Shown piece after piece: positions 99-25,533 of a DNA stretch of 64,000 nt. Where the stretch lies: positions 1 through 64,000 of the forward strand of contig NZ_AUDD01000001.1 of NCBI RefSeq assembly GCF_000425285.1, given 5' to 3'. The notes beneath the pieces are model-generated. The model was given only the letters and a program-made list of their open reading frames with translations, had not been told where the DNA came from and did no database searches. Source of the stretch: Acidipropionibacterium jensenii DSM 20535 (GTDB lineage Bacteria; Actinomycetota; Actinomycetes; Propionibacteriales; Propionibacteriaceae). A program made the translations under genes and the position numbers. The stretch's first letter is position 1; every line of letters begins with the position of its first letter.

Positions 99-239
99 TA
101 CCACCACCGCGCTTGCAACCAGAATCGTCAGGAGGACGACTGACCACACCGCTGCTCCGACATGGCGAAGGCCTCCGGCCTCTGCACCCGTCGCGGGCGT
201 GATGTCGGAGGTGGGTGCATTGGCCTCCTGGCCGGTCAC
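96..239 (-). pseudogene. FecCD-type ABC permease, N-terminal fragment cut by IS insertion
   Basis: A GTG start at 239-237 overlaps the TGA of the binding-protein gene (238-236) by the four bases GTGA, the usual coupling in binding-protein/permease operons. The frame stays open for 48 codons, giving a polar leader and then a hydrophobic stretch (VWSVVLLTILVASAVVVL) that resembles the first membrane helix of FecCD/BtuC permeases. Homology ends at the IS630 transposase end near 96-98. The importer that should partner the upstream binding protein is therefore broken, unless the rest reappears on the far side of the IS element. The family is inferred from operon position and the single helix, not from a full domain. 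Confidence 0.55.
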
Positions 240-1342
240 CTCTGGAACTTCGCCAGTCCGTCACTGACGATTGTCGCGCCGTCGGTGAGCTGCGCTCCCG
301 GGGTGGTAGCGGCGAAGGGCAGAGTGATGAAGCTCTTGTTCTTCACTGCCCGGAGGTTCTTCAGGACAGGGTCGGTCTCCAGATACTTGATCTTCTTGGC
401 GGCCGTATCCCATGACGCGTCGGCCAGCACGATGACGTCCGGATCGGCTGCTACGACCTTCTCCCAGGACCCGTCGAACCAGTTCGACTTCTGATGTGCG
501 AACACGTTGGTGGCGCCAGCGGCGCTGAGGATCAACTGTGGCCCGCCAGTCCCTCCTCCCAGGAATGGCGTCTTGTCGCCCGAGTCGAACCAAACTGCTG
601 TGAGGCCCTTGCCGTTCTGCGCGGCCTGGACAGCGTTCAGCTCTTCCTTCTGCTTGGAGATCACGGTCTTGGCCGCTTCTGGCCGGCCGAGGATCTTGGC
701 CACGTTGGTCACCTCGGAGTAGACGTTGTCCCAAGTGGCGTCTGCCGACTTGGTGCCGTCCGGGCAGCCGAATGGGCTGATGTATGTGCCGATGCCCTGT
801 CGTGCGAGCGCCTCGCGGGTGCCCACGGCCTTGTCGGTGAAGGCGCTGGCATACGAGGCGAAGGCGAAGTCTGGTCTGGCGGCCAGGAAGGCCTCTTTGT
901 CGGGGTACTCCTTTGAGAGCACCTTCACCGACTTGTAGGCCGACTGCCACTTCTCGGGCATCACACCGTCCAGATAGGCGGTACCGACGAGGCTCTTCTG
1001 CATTCCGAGGGCGAGAACGTTCTCGGTGGCTCCCTGGTTGAGGGTGACAGCTCGGGTGACCGGCTTTGCGAGAGTGATCTTGTGGCCACAGTTGGTGAGG
1101 GAGATGCTGGTCGGCGTCGCAGCACTTGACGTTGAGGCTGACGGACCCGAGGTGGGACTGGGGGCGCCAGCGCATCCGGAGAGTCCGATTGCCAACGCTG
1201 AGATCGCGGCCGTCGCGGTCAGCGAGAAGTGGGCGCGACGAGTGGAGTGCTGGTTGAGTGACGAACCATCGGGACCGGCCGTGGGACGCGAGGCGTCAGT
1301 GCGATGGAACAGGGATGCCATGGTCACAGAGAGAAAAGGCAT
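236..1342 (-). CDS. Iron-siderophore/corrinoid-type ABC substrate-binding lipoprotein
   Basis: This 368-residue protein has a lipoprotein signal peptide whose lipobox ends GLSGC near residue 57, then a Ser/Thr/Pro linker. The two-lobed helical-backbone metal receptor fold of the FepB/FecB/BtuF family follows, with blocks such as RAVTLNQGATENVLALG and DPDVIVLAD. It should capture a metal chelate or corrinoid outside the membrane for a FecCD permease. A cobalamin riboswitch at about 1392-1545 precedes it on the same strand, suggesting a cobalamin, cobinamide or cobalt-chelate ligand. The ATG at 1342 has AGGAAG upstream; the inner ATG at 1321 lacks a Shine-Dalgarno sequence. The following permease gene is truncated, so the protein may be orphaned. 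Confidence 0.8.
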   Translation of the reverse strand: MPFLSVTMASLFHRTDASRPTAGPDGSSLNQHSTRRAHFSLTATAAISALAIGLSGCAGAPSPTSGPSASTSSAATPTSISLTNCGHKITLAKPVTRAVTLNQGATENVLALGMQKSLVGTAYLDGVMPEKWQSAYKSVKVLSKEYPDKEAFLAARPDFAFASYASAFTDKAVGTREALARQGIGTYISPFGCPDGTKSADATWDNVYSEVTNVAKILGRPEAAKTVISKQKEELNAVQAAQNGKGLTAVWFDSGDKTPFLGGGTGGPQLILSAAGATNVFAHQKSNWFDGSWEKVVAADPDVIVLADASWDTAAKKIKYLETDPVLKNLRAVKNKSFITLPFAATTPGAQLTDGATIVSDGLAKFQR

Positions 1343-1642: not shown

Positions 1643-3100
1643 TCACATCTCCATCGCCATCGGCATTGCGAAGAGGATGCAGTTGAGCGCGACGAGCAGC
1701 ATGATCGCCACTGCGTTGACGGCGAAGGTCGCGCCGGGACGAGGATCGGCGCGATTGCCGTGAGCCATCCGGTAGGCGGTGTACAGGGCGCCGGCAGTCG
1801 CCAGAGCGATGAGGGTGTACTGGACCGTCTTGATGGCGTCCGGGGGAACCAGACCCATGTTCATGTCCATTCCGCCAGCCGTCGACATCGGGTGGGCCAT
1901 CCCCAGGGCGTGGAGCAGGGAGAACCACAGCGCCTTGCCCTCGCCGAGCAGGTGGAAGCAGGCGTGGGCGATGTGCACTCCCAGGCACAGCGGGATCATG
2001 GTGTAGCCGAACTGACTGAAGTTCTGCTTGGCCGTCCTCCCGTTGATCGCACCGGCGAGGAGTGCTGCCAGGAGCACCAGGACGGCCGGGATGGCAACAG
2101 TCGGAAGGTAGGCGACGCTGAAGTCCACAGCCGTGTTCGCGGTAGTGGTGACGTCGGCGTGGAGCACGTTCATCACGTCGTCCCAGATCGGCAGCATGGT
2201 GGCGTTCTCCAGCAGCACGATGCCCATGATCCCGACCGCCAGACCGGCCACCGGGAACCGCGGCTTGAGTGTGGTCCACAGCTCGCTGGTGGGCATTCGG
2301 GGACTGATCCGGATGGCGTTCGACGGGCAGGTCTTGACGCAGTCGGCGCACAGTGTGCACTCGGCGCTGGTGTCCATGGCACGCGGGAACTCGAACATCG
2401 GACAACCGGGCGCCTGCGCGGTGCCTCGGAAGCAGGCCTTGGTCTGGCAGCTCGAGCAGGTCGATCGGTGGGCTCTCAGCTCCAGCATCCCGGCCCGGGC
2501 GTAGTTGCTCGACAATCCGCCGACCGGGCACACGTAGCGGCACCAGGTCCGCCTCTCGTAGAGGGCGCCGAAAGCCACCGTCGCCGCGGCGAACAGCAGC
2601 AGCATGATCCCGGAGGCGCGCGGAGCCTCGACGATCCCGGTGACGTGCTCGAACCAGGTGACCACCAGGAACACCCCGAGCATGATCCACATGGCATTGC
2701 GCTTCAGGAAGGCGGGGGCGCGGTGGCGGCGTCCGACCATCTTCTGGACCAGGTCGTTGAGGTACCCGAACGGGCAGACGGCGCACCACACCCGACCGAA
2801 CAGCAGCAGGACGATCGGCAGGGCCGACCACCACAGGATCCACATCACCGCGCTGCCGAGGTTCATGTCGGCGTCGCGGGGCCCGGCGAACAGGTCGTAG
2901 ACCAAGTACACGAAGAACAGCAGGATCGGGATCTGCAGGGCTGCGGGCCACCATCGGCTGTTGAGCAGGCGGTTCACCCCCCGGTTGGCCAACAGGTCCG
3001 GGGGAGGGAACTCGTCGTCCGGATCGGGCTGCCGATGGTTCGGATCCCGAACAGGGATCCGGGGATCGAGAAGGACCTCATGGTGTGACGTCGTGGTCAT
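1643..3100 (-). CDS. Membrane polyferredoxin, NapH/NosR-like 4Fe-4S protein
   Basis: This 485-residue integral membrane protein has several hydrophobic segments. Cysteine motifs of the NapH/CcoG group appear as CAVCPFG near residue 107 and CRYVCPVG near 191. They are followed by CSSCQTKAC and a ferredoxin-like CTLCADCVKTCP block near residue 255. The C-terminal half is a separate multi-helix domain with HIAHACFH, HALGMAHP and Met-rich stretches (GGMDMNMG, and a C-terminus AMPMAMEM) that could bind heme or a soft metal. The family passes electrons across or along the membrane. It starts 9 nt after the DUF305 gene and shares its cobalamin riboswitch. The electron acceptor is unknown; metal reduction coupled to the DUF305 protein is my inference. 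Confidence 0.75.
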   Translation of the reverse strand: MTTTSHHEVLLDPRIPVRDPNHRQPDPDDEFPPPDLLANRGVNRLLNSRWWPAALQIPILLFFVYLVYDLFAGPRDADMNLGSAVMWILWWSALPIVLLLFGRVWCAVCPFGYLNDLVQKMVGRRHRAPAFLKRNAMWIMLGVFLVVTWFEHVTGIVEAPRASGIMLLLFAAATVAFGALYERRTWCRYVCPVGGLSSNYARAGMLELRAHRSTCSSCQTKACFRGTAQAPGCPMFEFPRAMDTSAECTLCADCVKTCPSNAIRISPRMPTSELWTTLKPRFPVAGLAVGIMGIVLLENATMLPIWDDVMNVLHADVTTTANTAVDFSVAYLPTVAIPAVLVLLAALLAGAINGRTAKQNFSQFGYTMIPLCLGVHIAHACFHLLGEGKALWFSLLHALGMAHPMSTAGGMDMNMGLVPPDAIKTVQYTLIALATAGALYTAYRMAHGNRADPRPGATFAVNAVAIMLLVALNCILFAMPMAMEM

Positions 3101-3109
3101 GACTTGGAC

Positions 3110-3883
3110 TCACTTCATCCCGTCGAGCATGTTCTGCATCTGAGTGATCTGAGCGGTCTGCGAGCTGATGATGTCGGCGGCCAGGCTGATCGCCTGTGGA
3201 TTCGTGCCGTGGGTGAGCTCGGTCTTCGACATCTCCACCGCCGCCTGGTGGTGGACGATCATCTTCTGCAGGAAGAGCCTGTCGAACGCGGTCCCCCTGG
3301 CGGCCTTGAGCTGGGCCATGTCGGCCGGGGTCATGCCGGGCATGTCCATCCCGCTCATGGTGCTGGGGGAGGACGCCGCCGAACCGGGCGACGTCATGCC
3401 TTCCATCTGGTGGGAGGAGTGATCCATCCCTGGCATCGAGGACGCCGGCATCGACATGCCGGGCATCGAGGACGCCGGCATGCTCATCCCGCCCATCGGT
3501 GATCCTGTGGAGGATGCCGACGGCATGGCCGAGGAGCCCGCCATCGCGGCCTTCCACACCGTCAGCCAGCCCTTCATCTGCTGGATCTCGGGGCCCTGGG
3601 CCTCCTGGATCTGAACGGCGAGGGTCTTCACGGCGTCACTACTGGCGCGTTCGGGAACCAGCGCCGACATGTCGATCGCACCCTGGTGGTGGACGATCAT
3701 CATCGTGGTGAAACTCATGTCCTGGGCATTGTGCTTCGGCGAGACGGCCGCCGATGCCGGGGCCGAGGCTGAGGGGGAGCTCGTGGCGGTGCTGGGATTG
3801 GTGGCGGCCAGACAGCTGACCAGCCCGATCACCGCCACCACGGCGACCCCGGAACCGATCGCGACGCGGGACTTGGGACTCAT
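3110..3883 (-). CDS. DUF305 protein with Met/His-rich linker, secreted
   Basis: This 257-residue protein has an N-terminal membrane anchor or signal (residues about 7-27, ending SCLAATN, a possible lipobox). It has two copies of the DUF305 signature: MMIVHHQGAIDM early and MIVHHQAAVEM late. Between them lies a Met/His-rich repeat built from SMPGMSMPAS units and GMDHSSHQMEGM. DUF305 proteins are often found near copper or other metal handling genes, but no reaction is established. I chose the ATG at 3883 because GGAGG lies 6 nt upstream. The longer open frame to 4024 would translate the riboswitch and is rejected. The gene is co-transcribed with the polyferredoxin. Confidence 0.8.
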   Translation of the reverse strand: MSPKSRVAIGSGVAVVAVIGLVSCLAATNPSTATSSPSASAPASAAVSPKHNAQDMSFTTMMIVHHQGAIDMSALVPERASSDAVKTLAVQIQEAQGPEIQQMKGWLTVWKAAMAGSSAMPSASSTGSPMGGMSMPASSMPGMSMPASSMPGMDHSSHQMEGMTSPGSAASSPSTMSGMDMPGMTPADMAQLKAARGTAFDRLFLQKMIVHHQAAVEMSKTELTHGTNPQAISLAADIISSQTAQITQMQNMLDGMK

Positions 3884-3944
3884 GTGAACCTCCGGACGGG
3901 CGGATGTCACGGAGTCGTTTAGCGGCCCCGGTTCATCCATCGTG

Positions 3945-4065
3945 AACTGTGGGACACCTCGAGCCAGGCGACCGGACTTCGCCCTGAGGGCGTCACCGTT
4001 GCGCGGACAGTGCCGGATTCTCACCGGCTTCGCTGGGTCTCGACGTGGTCACGTCATGTGACTCT
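3945..4065 (-). promoter_or_regulatory. Cobalamin riboswitch upstream of DUF305/polyferredoxin operon
   Basis: On the minus strand it reads GCGAAGCCGGTGAGAATCCG, then CACTGTCCGCGCAACGGTGA and AAGTCCGGTCGCCTGGC, a near-consensus cobalamin aptamer. Downstream the hairpin-forming GTTCACGATGGATGAAC lies before the Shine-Dalgarno. The riboswitch at 25410-25533 carries the same core and the same 17-mer, so the two look like copies of one ancestor. Confidence 0.85.
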
Positions 4066-4121
4066 CCAGACGATAGTGAGCATGCCCGGCGGCTCTGTCG
4101 CCGGGGTCGGACAGCGGGGTC

Positions 4122-4799
4122 TCAGGGGTGCGGTGGCTCACGGTGAGGACGCCGGGGCACCTGCGGCGCCAGCAGGGCCAGGCTGAGCACATATCCCGGG
4201 GTCGGGTACAGGCTCACCAGTTCGACGCCGTTGGCCCTCGCGTGCAGCGAATCGTTGCGCGCGTCCCTCGGATCCTCCCAGAACCCGGTCCCGCGCGCCT
4301 TGAGGATCGCCTCTTTGGCGGTCCAGCGCAGGCAGGCGTCCTCCCGGCTCCGGTGGCCGGCGAGCCAGTGGAGCTCGGCCTCGGTGAAGACCTCGCTGAG
4401 CCGGCGCACCCGGTCGGCGCACGACGTCATCTGAATGTCGACCCCGACGGGCGCGGGCGAGACGGCCGCGGCGACCATCCCGGCGTCGTGGCTGATCGAG
4501 GCGTCCCAGCCCGGCACACTGAGGCGCGGCTTGGCCCGTCCCGGACCGCCGGGGACCTCGCCGAGATGGATGGCGGACGCAGTGGCACCGGTCTGGCGGG
4601 CGGCCAGATCTGCCAGCAGAAGGCGGGCCGCGACGAACCGGTGCTGGTCCTGGGGGCGGTGCAACCGCCTCATGAGACCGAGCTCCGCGCCGCTGAGTCG
4701 GCTCTCCGCCTCCCGGCAGGTCGCGGCGTTCGGAACCGCCGCCCAGGCGACCACGGCCTGCAGGCCGCTCGATGCGTGGTGCAGGGCGAGTGAGTTCAC
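4122..4799 (-). CDS. Sfp-type 4'-phosphopantetheinyl transferase
   Basis: This 225-residue enzyme transfers phosphopantetheine from CoA to carrier-protein serines. It carries the family's magnesium-binding block as VGVDIQMTS and the WTAKEAILKARGTGF helix, with upstream SISHDAGMVAAAV. The GTG start at 4799 has GAGGAGG six bases upstream; the longer frame to 5396 runs through the intergenic operator and is not used. It is divergent from the peptide synthetase at 5031 and shares a Zur/Fur-type palindrome with it. Its job is therefore presumably to activate the PCP domain of that synthetase. The gene appears intact although the synthetase is broken. Confidence 0.85.
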   Translation of the reverse strand: MNSLALHHASSGLQAVVAWAAVPNAATCREAESRLSGAELGLMRRLHRPQDQHRFVAARLLLADLAARQTGATASAIHLGEVPGGPGRAKPRLSVPGWDASISHDAGMVAAAVSPAPVGVDIQMTSCADRVRRLSEVFTEAELHWLAGHRSREDACLRWTAKEAILKARGTGFWEDPRDARNDSLHARANGVELVSLYPTPGYVLSLALLAPQVPRRPHREPPHP

Positions 4800-4866
4800 A
4801 GGGGTCCTCCTCACACCGGATCGGCCGGGATGGACTGGCGCCGGGTGGGGAGCCCCCGGGTTATTA

Positions 4867-4883
4867 ATGAGAATGATACTCAT
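4867..4883. promoter_or_regulatory. Zur/Fur-type operator palindrome
   Basis: The sequence ATGAGAATGATACTCAT is a 17-bp interrupted palindrome (ATGAG, 7 bases, CTCAT) in the AT-rich stretch between the divergent PPTase and synthetase genes. It fits the TGAnAATnATnnTCA pattern of Fur-family sites. In actinobacteria iron is mostly handled by DtxR/IdeR, whose box differs, so Zur (zinc) is the more likely binder. A Zur-controlled NRPS is known in Streptomyces (coelibactin). Confidence 0.55.
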
Positions 4884-5030
4884 GTACGGTGTGGGGGTCT
4901 CCTCCCCGCCCCCGATTCCCGTGCTCCCCACCCGGGGCACTCCGGGCGGGCCGGTTGCTCGTGCTCCCGATGCACGCGTTCGCAACGGTTCCCGACGTCC
5001 CCAACCCCGATATTTCCAAGGAGCAGATCC

Positions 5031-8000
5031 ATGAAGGCTGCCGCCCGTCAGGCACCGACCCAGGTCCGACCTCGGCCGGCACCGCATCCGACGACTCGCG
5101 AGGGTGTCGTCGATGTGGCGATGACCCCGATGCAGCGGGCCTATCTGCTCGGCAGCCTCGAGGGTCAGGAGCTGGGCGGTCAGGCGACCTTCCTCTACGT
5201 GGACATCGCGATGGCCTGCGACGCGGGGCGGGCCGCCCGCCTGATGGACACCCTCTTCGCCCGCCACGACATCTTCACCGCGACTCTGCGGCCGGAGGAG
5301 GCTGTGATCCGGCTCGATCCCGAGCTCCCGATCCGGACCTGCCGGGTTCACGGTCCGGACCGTGTCGAGGAGGACGGGACCCCGCGGTCGGCGCAACGGC
5401 AGGACCAGCGCGAGCAGTGTGACCAGGCGACACAGTCAGGGCAGGCGGGAAGCCGACTCATCGCCGAGGTCCGCGAACGGCTGATGGCCGAGGCCCGCGA
5501 CTGCCATCGCACCGGGCGGCTCTACGGCGCCGAGGCGATCCCGCTGGCCGACGGCACCTCCCGGGTCTGCCTCTACGCCTCCATGATCATCGCCGACGCC
5601 GTCTCCGGAGTGGTCTTCATCGGTGAACTCCATTCCTTGCTGCGCGGCGAGCCGCTGCCCGCCCCGGCCAGATACACCAATGCGATGCACCAGGTCCAGA
5701 CCCTCGCCGCGGCCAGGGCGGACGGGCAGAACCCGGACCCCGACAAGGCCTACTGGGCGCAGAAGGCGCCGACTCTGCCGCCGGCACCGCGCTTCCGCCG
5801 CGGCGCGAGGATGATCGACGGCTGGCAGACCCGCGGGTACCAGAAACTGTTGTCCGCCGAGCTGGTGGCGGGCCTGGAGCGACGCTGCAGGCAGGATCGG
5901 ACGAGCCTGTAGGTCCTCCTGCTGGCACTGCACAGCGCGGTCATCGCCCGGTGGTCGAACACCCCTCGGTTCAGCGCCAATGTCACCCTCACCGACCGCG
6001 ACCGGCTGCCCGAGGAGACCTCTGGAGCACTGATCGGGGACCTCACCACCTCTATGGTGGTCGGCGTCGACGTCTCCCGGTCCGAGGGCACCCGCCGGCT
6101 CTGCCACGCCCTGGGCCGCGAGATGGCCCGCAACCACCGGCATCGCGGGTACAGCGGGGTCGAGGTCATCAGGGAGCACCTCACCGCGGGTCAGCAGCCC
6201 GGAACCGCCGTCCTGCCGGTGGTCTTCACCAGCCTGCTCGGCAGCCACGCCCGGGCCGCGAACATCGACATGGACCTCCAGCAGATCTACACCCAGACCA
6301 GCCAGGTCTTCCTCGACATGCAGGTCATCCCGCGCTCGGGCTCGGTCCTGCTGTCCTGGGACGTCGTCCCCGGGTACTTCGGGTTCGACGTCGAGGAGAT
6401 GTTCGAGGCCACCTGCCGGACGATCGAGGGCTGTGCGGCGGGCGGCCAGGAGGTGCTGCCCGTCGTCGACTCCCGCTCCGAGAAGCTCCAGCAGCACTAC
6501 AACGACACCGCCGCCCCGGTCCCCGGTCAGACCCTCCTCGAGGCGGTGCTGGCCTCCTGCGCGCGCCATCCGGAACGCACCGCCGTGGTCAATCACACCG
6601 CCCGGGTCAGCTACAGCTACCGGGACCTGGACCAGATGTCCGCCCGGATCGCTCAACATCTGGCCGGCCAGGGCTGTCGGCCCGGAGACGTCGTCGCCGT
6701 GGAGACCACCAAGCACCCGATGTCGGTGGTCAACCAGCTCGGGGTACTGCGCGCCGGCTGCGCTTTCCTGCCGGTCGGCGCCGGGCTGCCCGCCCAGCGC
6801 AGGAGATACATGGCGGACGCCGCCAGGGCCACCGCCACCCTGGCGGACTCGACCTACCGGGACCAGGACCTGGCGGCCCTGCCGGCCGAGGTCGAACCCG
6901 TGCAGGTGGACCCCGACGATCCGGCCTACATCATCTTCACCTCGGGCTCGACCGGCCGGCCCAAGGGAGTGGTCATCTCCCACCGCGGCGCCCTCAACAC
7001 CATCGCCGACATCAACTCCCGGTTCCGCCTGGGGACCTCCGACACCGTCATCGGGCTGTCCGCGCTGACCTTCGACCTGTCGATCTACGACATCTACGGC
7101 ACCCTCGCCGCCGGCGCAAGGCTCTCGATGGTCAACGACGAGCGCGACGCCGACGAGATCCTCGAGGTGCTGCGCCGCGACCGCGTCACGCTGTGGAACT
7201 CCACCCCGGCACTGCTGGAGCTGACCCTGCTGAGAGCCGGCGATGACGACGTCGCCCCCTCCCTGAGGACTCTGATGCTCAGCGGCGACCGGATCTCCTT
7301 CACCCTTCCCGCCCGGTGCCACCGGCTCCTTCCCCACGCCGAGGTGTTCAGCCTGGGCGGTGCCACCGAGGCCAGCATCTGGTCGATCATCCATCCTCTG
7401 GACGGCTACTGCGACGCCACGGCGGTGCCCTACGGATCCCCGCTGGCCAACCAGACCATCCATGTCCTCGGATTCGACCGGCGTCCCTGCCCGGTGGGGG
7501 TGCCCGGCGAGATCTGGATCGGGGGAGCGGGTCTGGCGCTGGGATACTGCGGCGATCCCGACCGCACCGCGGCCTCGTTCCGGGATGTCCGGCCCTTCGG
7601 CAGGCTCTACCGGACCGGCGACATGGGGGTCTTCAACGCCCACCACTGGGTGGACTTCCTGGGCCGGCGGGACCGCCAGGTCAAGGTCCGCGGGCACCGG
7701 ATCGAACTGGGTGAGATCGAGACGGTGATGGAGGACGATCCCGCGGTGAGCCAGGTCGTCGTCGCTATCGTGCAGCGGTCCGGTCAGCCCACCATCGCCG
7801 CCTTCGTGGTGCCCTCCGGACCGGCGGACGCCGTTGATGTCGCGGCCCTGCGCGCCAGGTCCGGCGGATTCCTGCCGGAGTACATGGTGCCCTCGGTGAT
7901 CCCGGTGGTCGACGAGATTCCGACCACCGCCAACGGCAAGGTCGATCAACGCAGGCTCCAGGAGATCTGCGACTCCAGGGTCGACGCCGGGTCGCGTCAG

Positions 8001-8960
8001 AGCCGGCTCCGGCGTCCCGGAACCGCCGTGGTCCGCGGGGCTGCCGGGGCCGGCGTGGCCGGCGACAGTGCCGGGGACCCCGACTCCTCGGCGGGCCGGG
8101 AGTCCTGCCCGGAGTTCACCTGCCAGGACCCGTCCAGGGCCTGGATGAGAAGGATCTGGTCACAGGTGCTGGGTGGCCGGGTGACCGACGACGAGGCCTC
8201 CTTCTTCTCGATCGGTGGGGACTCGCTGACCTTCCAGGACCTGCTGCGCCGGGTGCATCAGGAGACCGGGCGCCCGCTCGCCTTCCGGGAGATCATCCTG
8301 GATCCGACGGTGCGCCGGTGCTGCGAGCTGGCCGGTTCGGAGCCGGTGACCGCCACCGGCCCCGACGACGTCGTCCCGAAGGGCTCGAATGCCGAGCCCG
8401 ACGACCACACCCGGAGTGTCGAGACCGGCGATGACGACCCGTACGCCCCCTTCCCCCTCACCGAGATGCAGCTGGCCTATCTCACGGGCCGCAATGCCGC
8501 CTTCGAACTGAGTGGGGGCTCGGAGCACTACTACCGGGAGACCGAGGCCCAGATCGATCCGGAGCGGTTGGAGGACGCCTTCAACGCCCTGATCGCCCGC
8601 CACCCGATGCTGCGCTGCCGGATCGACGCCGACGGAACCCAGCGGATCCTGGCCGAGGTGCCCCACTACCGGATCGAGCGGTACGGGGCCCCGGACCTGG
8701 CGGCGCTGCGCTCCCGGATGAGCCATGAGGTCTTCGCGGTGGGCAGCTGGCCGATGTTCCGGCTGGCCGCCGCCGGATCTGGGGGAGGGCCGGCACCGGC
8801 TGTTCCTCAGCATCGACCTCATCATCGCCGACGGGACGAGTCAGGCGATCCTGATGGAGGACCTCACCCGGTTCTACCAGGGTCGCGACCCCCTGCCGGT
8901 CTCCGGCACCTTCCGCGACTACCTGGTGAGGCTGGCGGCGCGCAACCAGGGCCGCAGTGG
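5031..8960 (+). pseudogene. NRPS Cy-A(Cys)-PCP-Cy, disrupted by amber stop and frameshift
   Basis: The ATG at 5031 has AAGGAG upstream. Domains in order are: a heterocyclization domain (residues about 31-480), an adenylation domain (about 505-990, FTSGSTGRPKGV near 633), a carrier protein (IGGDS near 1062) and a second cyclization domain from PLTEMQLAYL near 1143. The A-domain pocket reads D-L-Y-N-L-S-L-I-W, the published cysteine code, so it should build thiazolines as in HMWP2/PchE. The frame is broken by TAG at 5910-5912 (codon 294, homology continues in the same frame). It shifts frame near 8775-8785, after which DLIIADGTS of the second Cy motif is read in another frame. It ends without the rest of that domain. 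In the first Cy the motif reads SMIIADAVS, lacking the first Asp. It is likely non-functional. Confidence 0.85.
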
Positions 8961-9742
8961 TCCGGGCGGACTGGCCGGTCGAGTCGGTGACCTCCGATCT
9001 CATCGTGGGCGCCGGCCAACCCGTCGGCGCCGCCTCGCTGACCTCGATGCTGCTCTCCCTGACCGGCGAGGTCCGGGCGAGGCGGGCCGGAACAGTGGTT
9101 CGGGTGCCTGCCACGGTCGACCGGTCCGTCCGGGTCGGGGATATCAGGACGCGCTATCTCGTGGGCTATGAATGTCCCGACATCGATGTCGTGCAGAGAA
9201 TTGTCCCGGGGGTCTCCGAGTACTCCTATCGGGTCTGTTTCGAGCAACTCCCGGGATTTGCGGTGGATCTGGTTCACCGCCTCTCGGAGTACGGCAGGGG
9301 GTGGGGGATCGGGGTGTCCGAGCGGGGCAGGGCGCGCCGCGCCCGGACCGTCGCCGCCCTGGCCGGATGCGCGGCCGGGATCGCGACGGCCCTCAACCGC
9401 CGCCGGGGGCGCCAGGCCGATCCCGCCGTCCTGTCGATCGCACTGCACGGACGAGACGGGCAGACCCTCCGGGGCACCGTGACGGGGCCGTCCTCCTACC
9501 GGATGACGGCGGCATGCGCCCTCGCGGTGCTTCGGGTCGTCACCGAGGAGGTCGACCGAGTGCCGGCCGGGGTCAGTGAGCTGGACCGGCTGGGACAGTT
9601 CCACCGGGCGATCTGGGCGGAGCTCTCCCGGTTCGGGATCGACGTCCCGGAGATCACCGGGAGTGCTCGGGAATCATCGCCGATGAGGACCGGGAAGAAT
9701 GATCGACAAGGGGATCAGAGTGTGACTGGGGTGACGAAGTGA
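8957..9742 (+). pseudogene. Saccharopine dehydrogenase-like C-terminal remnant
   Basis: This 261-codon open frame joins directly onto the broken second cyclization domain. It has no Shine-Dalgarno and no N-terminal nucleotide-binding motif, so it appears to be the 3' part of a gene fused by deletion. The visible part includes RAGTVVRVPA, RTRYLVGYECPDIDV and VTGPSSYRMTAACALAVL. These remind me of the C-terminal halves of saccharopine dehydrogenase-like oxidoreductases, which occur in some NRPS clusters. Its TGA (9740-9742) overlaps the next gene's ATG at 9739, so the original gene was coupled to the exporter. The family call is tentative; a thiazoline reductase role is possible. Confidence 0.45.
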
Positions 9743-14659: not shown

Positions 14660-14878
14660 TCAGTGGCAGGGGAACCCGAGGAAGTGACGGGAGTCGTGCA
14701 CCCACTCGTGGATGTGCATGTCATTCCCGAAGACCGAGTAGGCGCCCTGGTCGACACCGATGAAGTAGTACAGCAGCAGAGCGACGACGACAGCGCCGAT
14801 CACCCAGCCGAGGGCCGAGTCCTTGGCCCAGTCGACAGCACCAACCTGCGGCTTGACGGCAATCTCATGCGAAGCCAT
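14660..14878 (-). CDS. cbtB: CbtB-type cobalt transporter subunit
   Basis: This 72-residue protein has one membrane helix (about residues 25-45, GWVIGAVVVALLLYYFIGV). Its C-terminal metal-ligand tail HIHEWVHDSRHFLGFPCH is the signature of CbtB. CbtB normally pairs with the larger CbtA in cobalamin-riboswitch-controlled cobalt uptake. Here no cbtA follows: a terminator comes next. GGGAGG lies 7 nt before the ATG at 14878. It ends the FecBCD-cobN-chlID operon, which reinforces a cobalt role. The partner could be encoded elsewhere, or CbtB may work with the ABC system here; that is inference. Confidence 0.85.
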   Translation of the reverse strand: MASHEIAVKPQVGAVDWAKDSALGWVIGAVVVALLLYYFIGVDQGAYSVFGNDMHIHEWVHDSRHFLGFPCH

Positions 14879-14988
14879 GGCAAAACCTCCCGGGGTATCA
14901 GATCCCCATAAATCCTGGATGCCCCACGCGGGGCACACCGGCACCCTACGCGCCTGCGCGCGCACATGATGGTCAGGACTCTCAGCCC

Positions 14989-25353: not shown

Positions 25354-25409
25354 GACCTGCGCCTCCGGACGGACGCGCTGGACGCATGACGCACCAGTTC
25401 ATCCATCGT

Positions 25410-25533
25410 GAACTCGAGTGGACACGCCGAGGCAGGCGACCGGACTTCGCCGAGATGGCGTCACCGTTGCGGGACAGTGCCGGATTCTCACCGGCTTCGC
25501 TGACACTCGATGTGGTCACGTCTTCCGTGACGC
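25410..25533 (-). promoter_or_regulatory. Cobalamin riboswitch leading the importer-cobN operon
   Basis: Minus-strand sequence reads GCGAAGCCGGTGAGAATCCG, then CACTGTCCCGCAACGGTGA and AAGTCCGGTCGCCTGCC, an excellent match to the cobalamin aptamer. Flanks GCGTCACGGAAGACGTGACC can form the basal stem. The downstream 17-mer GTTCACGATGGATGAAC can fold into a small hairpin ahead of the GGAGG of the binding-protein gene. It should repress the operon when cobalamin is plentiful. Confidence 0.9.

Follow-up and report, generated by a model that had tools for sequence, protein, structure and literature searches.

A DUF305 lipoprotein and a membrane polyferredoxin behind a cobalamin riboswitch in Acidipropionibacterium jensenii: a candidate redox module for cobalt supply

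Here, we examined a two-gene unit near the start of a contig of Acidipropionibacterium jensenii DSM 20535 (NZ_AUDD01000001.1, positions 1 to 64,000; this whole stretch of 64,000 nucleotides is called the window), in which a cobalamin (vitamin B12) riboswitch precedes genes for a secreted DUF305 protein and a membrane polyferredoxin. We propose, with about evenly balanced confidence, that this pair is a B12-repressed extracytoplasmic metal-redox module that supports the supply of cobalt for B12 synthesis. The proposal is built on the aptamer, the order of the genes and their conservation, on the grouping of the B12-linked polyferredoxins in a single clade, on the association of the polyferredoxin, in a sister genus, with cbtBA, genes of a predicted cobalt transporter, and, given a predicted topology, on residues of the outer membrane face. 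The features of the pair are as follows.

4059-3920, minus strand: adenosylcobalamin (AdoCbl)-type B12 riboswitch aptamer of the pair (RF01482)
3889-3919, minus strand: putative expression platform, including the Shine-Dalgarno (SD) sequence GGAGG at 3893-3889
3883-3110, minus strand: DUF305/CopM-type lipoprotein with a Met/His-rich linker
3100-1643, minus strand: membrane polyferredoxin, NapH-like, with about nine predicted transmembrane (TM) helices and 12 conserved Cys (profiles, model and alignment)

The aptamer matched RF01482 at 47.3 bits (E 8.6e-7 in a 3.8-kb search) against a gathering score of 50, while the orthologous leaders reached 58.3 and 50.0 bits; the term near-consensus, applied to it in an earlier note on this DNA, was therefore a little generous, but the observation as such holds. 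That note missed a second aptamer (1583-1382), between the pair and the gene for the substrate-binding protein (SBP) of an ATP-binding cassette (ABC) importer. On inspection of the putative platform 3889-3919 we saw no T-run, from which we infer control of the pair at the level of translation. A consensus fold of four leaders placed a conserved TTCACGATGGATG segment in pairing with the SD region, as one among several possible folds.

The gene of the lipoprotein starts with ATG at 3883 and encodes 257 residues, among them 28 Met and 8 His, with a lipobox-like LVSC at the N-terminus and two HHQ motifs. Its matches to PF03713 (161.2 bits, E 2.5e-47; cut-off 27 bits) and NF049983 (104.9 bits; cut-off 90 bits) both exceed the thresholds, and it is the sole DUF305 match in the genome. 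Only 9 nt separate it from the polyferredoxin gene, whose product matched Fer4_5 at 55.7 bits and the NapH/MauN model TIGR02163 at 48.2 bits, far below the cut-off of 213, and carries His and Met clusters in its C-terminal part. Both proteins are thus much as the earlier note had described them, namely a secreted DUF305 protein with a Met/His-rich linker and a NapH-like 4Fe-4S membrane protein with C-terminal His and Met clusters.

Conservation of the riboswitch upstream of homologous pairs had been set beforehand as a test, and an RF01482 aptamer was kept upstream of all three pairs that we found. DUF305 stands directly ahead of the polyferredoxin in the genus only (the window, G063 and G027), while at two further loci (L169, L110) a DUF305 match lies at a distance of some kb. 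In the same three genomes the SBP gene lies behind an RF00174 aptamer, so that pair and SBP co-occur in three of the five genus genomes; the SBP gene directly follows the pair in the window and G027, whereas in G063 a ZnuA-type ABC system intervenes and the distance from the pair is about 4.5 kb. The polyferredoxin is sparse in the lineage: among 197 genomes of the family 29 had any match and 12, including its own, a full-length one (again 12 of 198 with another query), and in a class-wide sample it was present in 8 of 394 genomes, its own included.

To place the pair among its relatives we drew on 54 loci beyond the window that encode a homologous polyferredoxin: the family supplied 11, the class 7, and the remaining 36 came from the 80 best of 467 confirmed relatives; the other 44 of the 80 were mostly weaker, partial or cyanobacterial, and the set holds copies of one genome (L090 and L172 are identical in sequence). 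Besides the window, a B12 aptamer was found at the polyferredoxin gene only in L058 (G063), L059 (G027) and L060 (G033). A riboswitch common to the wider polyferredoxin family, with aptamers at 3 of 54 loci and in the window, is not supported. This survey combined a model of our own, R1, on all 54 loci with Rfam at gathering scores on 30 of them, L060 being recovered at a relaxed threshold. Built from eight aptamers of this group, R1 has an automatic structure of 6 pairs and is effectively a sequence model that distant types may escape; the window, L058, L059 and L060 were part of it and match by construction, and it also recovered aptamers of the own genome outside its set. Its two other matches, at L087 14249 (20.8 bits) and L067 172 (16.5 bits), lie at least 5 kb from the gene. 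At gathering scores Rfam reported B12 aptamers in L058 and L059 only, a threshold that weak ones such as those of the window or L060 escape. RF00174 scans of 36 host genomes, most with partial scoring of candidates, were compared with the loci by eye, on hit coordinates irrespective of contig. Seven loci of possible overlap (L070, L074, L086, L094, L095, L104, L126) were rescanned with Rfam and gave no B12 match, four (L072, L080, L091, L102) were judged non-fitting by coordinates and are covered by R1 only, and L069, a 71-residue end piece, stood outside the scans.

A maximum-likelihood tree built from 54 sequences joins the four B12-linked polyferredoxins in one clade (100/100). This clade groups with Clostridium sequences (99/99) and stands apart from the remaining actinobacterial copies of the same family; branches are long for some distant rows. 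The simplest reading of these sequences would be one recruitment, perhaps after transfer from Clostridia.

The link to cobalt comes from G033, which belongs to a different genus. Its polyferredoxin, at 55% identity, is the nearest homologue beyond the genus of the window, and its locus L060 reads in order: weak aptamer, cbtB (PF09489, 42.4 bits), cbtA (PF09490, 201 bits) and polyferredoxin. A match to the SBP was not found in L060, nor was CbtA or CbtB (PF09490, PF09489) in the pair's own unit in the window.

The residues of the polyferredoxin are consistent with an outer metal site. All 53 aligned sequences share ten of the 12 conserved Cys as well as H376, H379 and H383. C106, C109 and M481 each occur in 52 sequences and face a single gap; H152 is shared by 50 sequences, and M485 by 41, the alignment having 11 gaps there. 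Combining the helix limits of an AlphaFold model (mean predicted local distance difference test score, pLDDT, 79; part of the ferredoxin region below 50) with positive-inside counts of Lys and Arg (5, 14 and 2 in the cytoplasmic loops; 1, 0, 0, 1 and 0 in the outer ones) predicts the ferredoxin domain inside and H152, H376-H383, a Met-rich loop at 387-419 and the C-terminal MPMAMEM on the outer face. The Met-rich loop is a feature of the genus copies and not of the G033 protein. At 17 positions the other 49 sequences agree to at least 85% and all four B12-linked proteins differ, with substitutions that include D151 to E, Q298 to E, N380 to A or S, D372 to C or G, and D141 to L or V. D151, Q298 and N380 are found in 49 of the 49 others and D372 in 46, and each is changed in all four; these four positions are at outer helix ends or sequence-adjacent to outer His residues. 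Such clade substitutions would fit an outer metal site that is conserved but acts on another substrate, and might bear on the choice of metal.

Cobalt(III) bound by a chelator is inert and becomes labile once reduced, and it is for this reason that we propose a redox step. The proposed course, from repression itself through the electron donor, the direction of electron flow, the partner proteins and handover by the lipoprotein to cobalt as the metal, would run as follows. With AdoCbl plentiful, the aptamer would fold and hide the ribosome-binding site; a shortage of B12 would allow both proteins of the pair to be made. The polyferredoxin would draw electrons on the cytoplasmic side from menaquinol or ferredoxin and pass them through its Fe-S clusters to the His/Met site on the outer face, where the DUF305 lipoprotein may bind or hand over metal. 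The most likely purpose would be to convert oxidised or chelated Co(III) into labile Co(II) for the B12-regulated importers (CbtBA, Cbi and the neighbouring SBP system). In a bacterium well stocked with B12 genes, a B12 switch ahead of a DUF305 gene and a polyferredoxin gene that in many relatives lies near copper genes points to a redox module of copper type that may have been turned over to cobalt supply. More tentatively, and with some doubt on our part, a CcoG-like polyferredoxin clade may have come once under B12 riboswitches, together with a DUF305 lipoprotein or CbtBA, and may now reduce Co(III) chelates at the outer face, freeing Co(II) for B12 synthesis. If true, this would be a cobalt counterpart of reductive iron uptake.

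Several observations weigh against cobalt supply as the role of the pair. The pair's leader alone folds no better than shuffles, and two of the five genus genomes (G003, G047) lack the polyferredoxin, likewise the SBP. In L060 the aptamer reaches 28.2 bits (E 0.03), below the Rfam cut-off, and the leader is 57% identical to the cbtBA leader of the window's genome but also 52-56% to those of the pairs; a 12-bp GC-rich hairpin without T-run, seen by eye in the 70-nt gap between cbtA and the polyferredoxin gene, makes read-through from one to the other uncertain. The long stem of the clade (0.83) alone would also yield some substitutions of the kind seen in the polyferredoxin, and a search of solved structures gave no good match to the model (Foldseek, none at E < 0.001; VIA-align, none at Z of at least 8); sequence matches in the PDB were to ferredoxin stretches only and allow no conclusion on the fold. 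A cobalt or zinc ABC system co-operonic with the pair in G063 was considered and dropped: the ZnuA-type genes follow after a gap of several hundred nt, with ZnuA split over two frames, and L058 5528-5501 (minus strand) ahead of them contains a palindrome, read by eye, that we take to be Fur/Zur-like. Gap and palindrome together suggest a separate unit.

The copper background of the wider family counts in the same direction. The family is widespread, and at 26 of the 54 loci tblastn detected a gene for a metal P-type ATPase or a multicopper oxidase close by. With L059 set aside, this leaves 25 of the 51 loci without aptamer; copper is an upper estimate for the ATPases that were left untyped. 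A YtkA-like secreted protein occurs at 13 of 54 loci, three of six upstream proteins tested passing the YtkA Pfam cut-off, and at several others a Met/His-rich secreted protein is encoded just upstream (by eye). In general, then, the module seems to consist of a polyferredoxin and a secreted partner that binds metal, a part taken here by DUF305. At L169, DUF305, a CopA-like ATPase and two-component genes (by eye) surround the polyferredoxin. The Clostridium loci L070, L073, L074 and L101 have, not all of them everywhere, UbiA/MenA-type, MenG-like, polyprenyl-synthase or DoxX-type genes near the polyferredoxin, which hints at a quinone-linked electron chain. The Met-rich motifs favour Cu(I), and two COX1 matches in the host genome mean that it probably needs copper. 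In the accessible part of PMC4335983, Synechocystis CopM binds Cu(I) tightly and Co(II) hardly, and is well retained on Cu(II) and Ni(II) beads but hardly on Co(II) and Zn(II) ones.

With this preference of CopM and a host that probably needs copper, a copper module active during B12 shortage is a serious rival, though we judge it rather unlikely. DUF305 would then bind Cu(I) and the polyferredoxin reduce Cu(II) in the manner of CcoG; that this would, for example, keep copper from broad-range cobalt importers or chelatases expressed at that time, or feed copper enzymes, is a suggestion we hold equally doubtful. The CopM model NF049983, passed by the lipoprotein, its 28 Met and the copper genes near relatives argue for copper. 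Set against these, the pair in the window adjoins the SBP gene and phosphopantetheinyl transferase (PPTase)/non-ribosomal peptide synthetase (NRPS)-like genes, as read from open reading frames (ORFs), and not copper genes; tblastn found no multicopper oxidase near L058 or L059; the sister copy sits with cbtBA; and the B12-linked clade is separate, with changed residues near the conserved His. The heavy-metal P-type ATPase upstream of the pair in L059 (G027) scored above the Cd-type and below the Cu-type cut-off, which speaks against copper as well as against cobalt. Less probable still is that the pair serves the neighbouring importer (SBP, FecCD, ATPase and [2Fe-2S] protein), a corrinoid or Co(III)-metallophore being reduced at the membrane before or after import. 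In favour of this, SBP and pair occur in exactly the same three of five genus genomes, the SBP unit has an RF00174 aptamer of its own in each of them, and FecCD, ATPase and thioredoxin-like [2Fe-2S] genes follow it in G027, whereas the L060 polyferredoxin goes with cbtBA and no SBP match, the family assignments of the SBP (F420-0, Eit siderophore, BtuF) are all below cut-off, and the FecCD permease of G063 matches in three pieces. General electron transfer with no metal substrate, such as quinol-linked reactivation of B12 enzymes or redox poise, we hold to be improbable: UbiA/MenA-type and polyprenyl-synthase genes do occur close to some clostridial relatives (MenA-like at 3 of 54 loci), but conserved outer-face His and Met and Met/His-rich secreted partners favour a metal. 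The redox-linked cobalt or corrinoid system proposed in the earlier note is upheld in part: the aptamers ahead of three of three pairs and the sister copy with cbtBA speak for it, cobalt as the metal is put in doubt by CopM and the copper-gene neighbours, and the neighbouring ABC importer is the one support for a corrinoid role.

Further features of the window belong to the same regulation or to the surroundings of the pair.

1583-1382, minus strand: second B12 aptamer, RF00174 (61.4 bits, gathering score 31.5), opening the next unit with the SBP gene
236-1342, minus strand: ABC substrate-binding protein (SBP), Peripla_BP_2; best NCBIfam match TIGR03868, below cut-off
25386-25527, minus strand: paralogous aptamer (55 bits) upstream of SBP-FecCD-ATPase-cobN genes
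14660-14881, minus strand: cbtB, predicted cobalt transporter subunit (PF09489, 40.7 bits)

With many genes behind the other aptamers of the genome, the pair is one member of a broad B12 regulon. The window has six B12 aptamer matches, three above and three below the family cut-off, and the whole genome 13 RF00174 matches, from the scoring of 150 of 298 candidates, besides 7 RF01482 matches (E up to 0.001) that overlap with these in part; the weak match C6:136421, inside an ABC-F-like gene (by eye) and missed by R1, is probably false. Pfam places SBP-FecCD-ATPase-cobN behind the aptamer at 25.5 kb and cbiM behind one at 50 kb, and cbtB-cbtA lies on another contig behind its own aptamer (RF00174, 29.4 bits, E 1.5e-5 for the genome; below cut-off). 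From ORFs alone, other aptamer-led genes look like a peptide/nickel-type ABC system, a BtuFCD-like ABC system, an energy-coupling factor (ECF)-type transporter and methylmalonyl-CoA mutase. The pair's leader shares 80-83% identity with the orthologous leaders and with that of the 25.5-kb unit (81% for the latter). In G063 it follows an aminotransferase homologue (82% and 68%, in two pieces) that, in the window, has its counterpart ahead of the 25.5-kb leader, and the leader was therefore probably shared through rearrangement or duplication. Behind the aptamer at 25.5 kb, window 25527-14660 (minus strand) carries SBP, FecCD permease, ATPase, CobN and a small secreted protein, ending in two Mg-chelatase-like AAA genes (by eye) and the lone cbtB without cbtA. 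At L022 (G000:C35), 22 residues left over from the C-terminus of the polyferredoxin (91% identical) are encoded at 4034-4102 (plus strand), beside a further RF00174 aptamer (3837-3652, minus strand) that leads two unassigned secreted proteins (3610-2126 and 1997-474); at 7992-7018 (minus strand) a paralogous SBP gene with one in-frame TAG lies downstream of an RF00174 aptamer and FecCD/ATPase-like genes. L025 (G000:C5) 4260-9150 (plus strand) has a B12 aptamer and then, by eye, genes for a secreted protein, which may be a corrinoid-binding surface protein, and an ECF-type transporter.

As the contig begins at window position 1, the window shows the SBP gene but not the rest of the importer; in G027, FecCD permease, ATPase (by eye) and thioredoxin-like [2Fe-2S] protein follow. 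On the other side of the pair, among the PPTase/NRPS-like genes, an NRPS-like gene (by eye) at 4830-8990 (plus strand) has an in-frame TAG at 5910-5912 with the coding pattern continuing beyond, for which reason the cluster looks decayed. Ahead of it, at about 4861-4885, is a palindrome that we presume to be iron-box-like.

In the available text of two surveys and a review (PMC3766115, PMC2667541, PMC7689651), B12-riboswitch genes serve biosynthesis, B12 and cobalt transport, or isozymes; many cobalt transporters were found through their riboswitch, and the known or predicted B12-regulated cobalt genes are transporters. Searched by title, the open-licence literature gave no account of a cobalamin riboswitch with DUF305 or a polyferredoxin, of CbtA/CbtB with ferredoxin and cobalt, of an Acidipropionibacterium cobalt riboswitch, or of a redox step in cobalt uptake, and DUF305 does not occur in the accessible part of PMC11494915. 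A known riboswitch class and known protein families are combined here in a new way. The riboswitch makes the function of the polyferredoxin clade directly testable, which bears on how B12 producers obtain scarce cobalt.

Four known systems help to put the pair into context. The predicted cobalt transporter CbtAB is likewise a B12-riboswitch unit, and in G033 the polyferredoxin follows cbtBA; in the window, by contrast, neither CbtA nor CbtB adjoins the pair, cbtBA being elsewhere in the genome behind its own aptamer. CbtJKL of Sinorhizobium meliloti is an ABC importer of Co(II) with a BtuF-like SBP, like the SBP unit next to the pair, a likeness drawn by description, and the accessible part of its account (PMC7689651) mentions no redox partner. 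CopM of Synechocystis shares with the present lipoprotein a secreted DUF305 domain, two HH motifs and a Met/His-rich composition, but, as far as the available part of PMC4335983 describes it, is copper-induced and encoded in a copper operon, whereas ours is a lipoprotein behind a B12 aptamer. Finally, CcoG (CcoG/RdxA/FixG, Rhodobacter capsulatus) is a membrane polyferredoxin that, in the accessible part of PMC7558416, has two [4Fe-4S] clusters and acts as a cupric reductase, and some members of the present family in other phyla have YtkA-like (FixH-type) partners upstream (3 of 6 tested over cut-off). By description, the present proteins differ from it in having a TM bundle at the C-terminus, with H376-x2-H379-x3-H383 and a Met tail, and in a clade that lies behind B12 aptamers.

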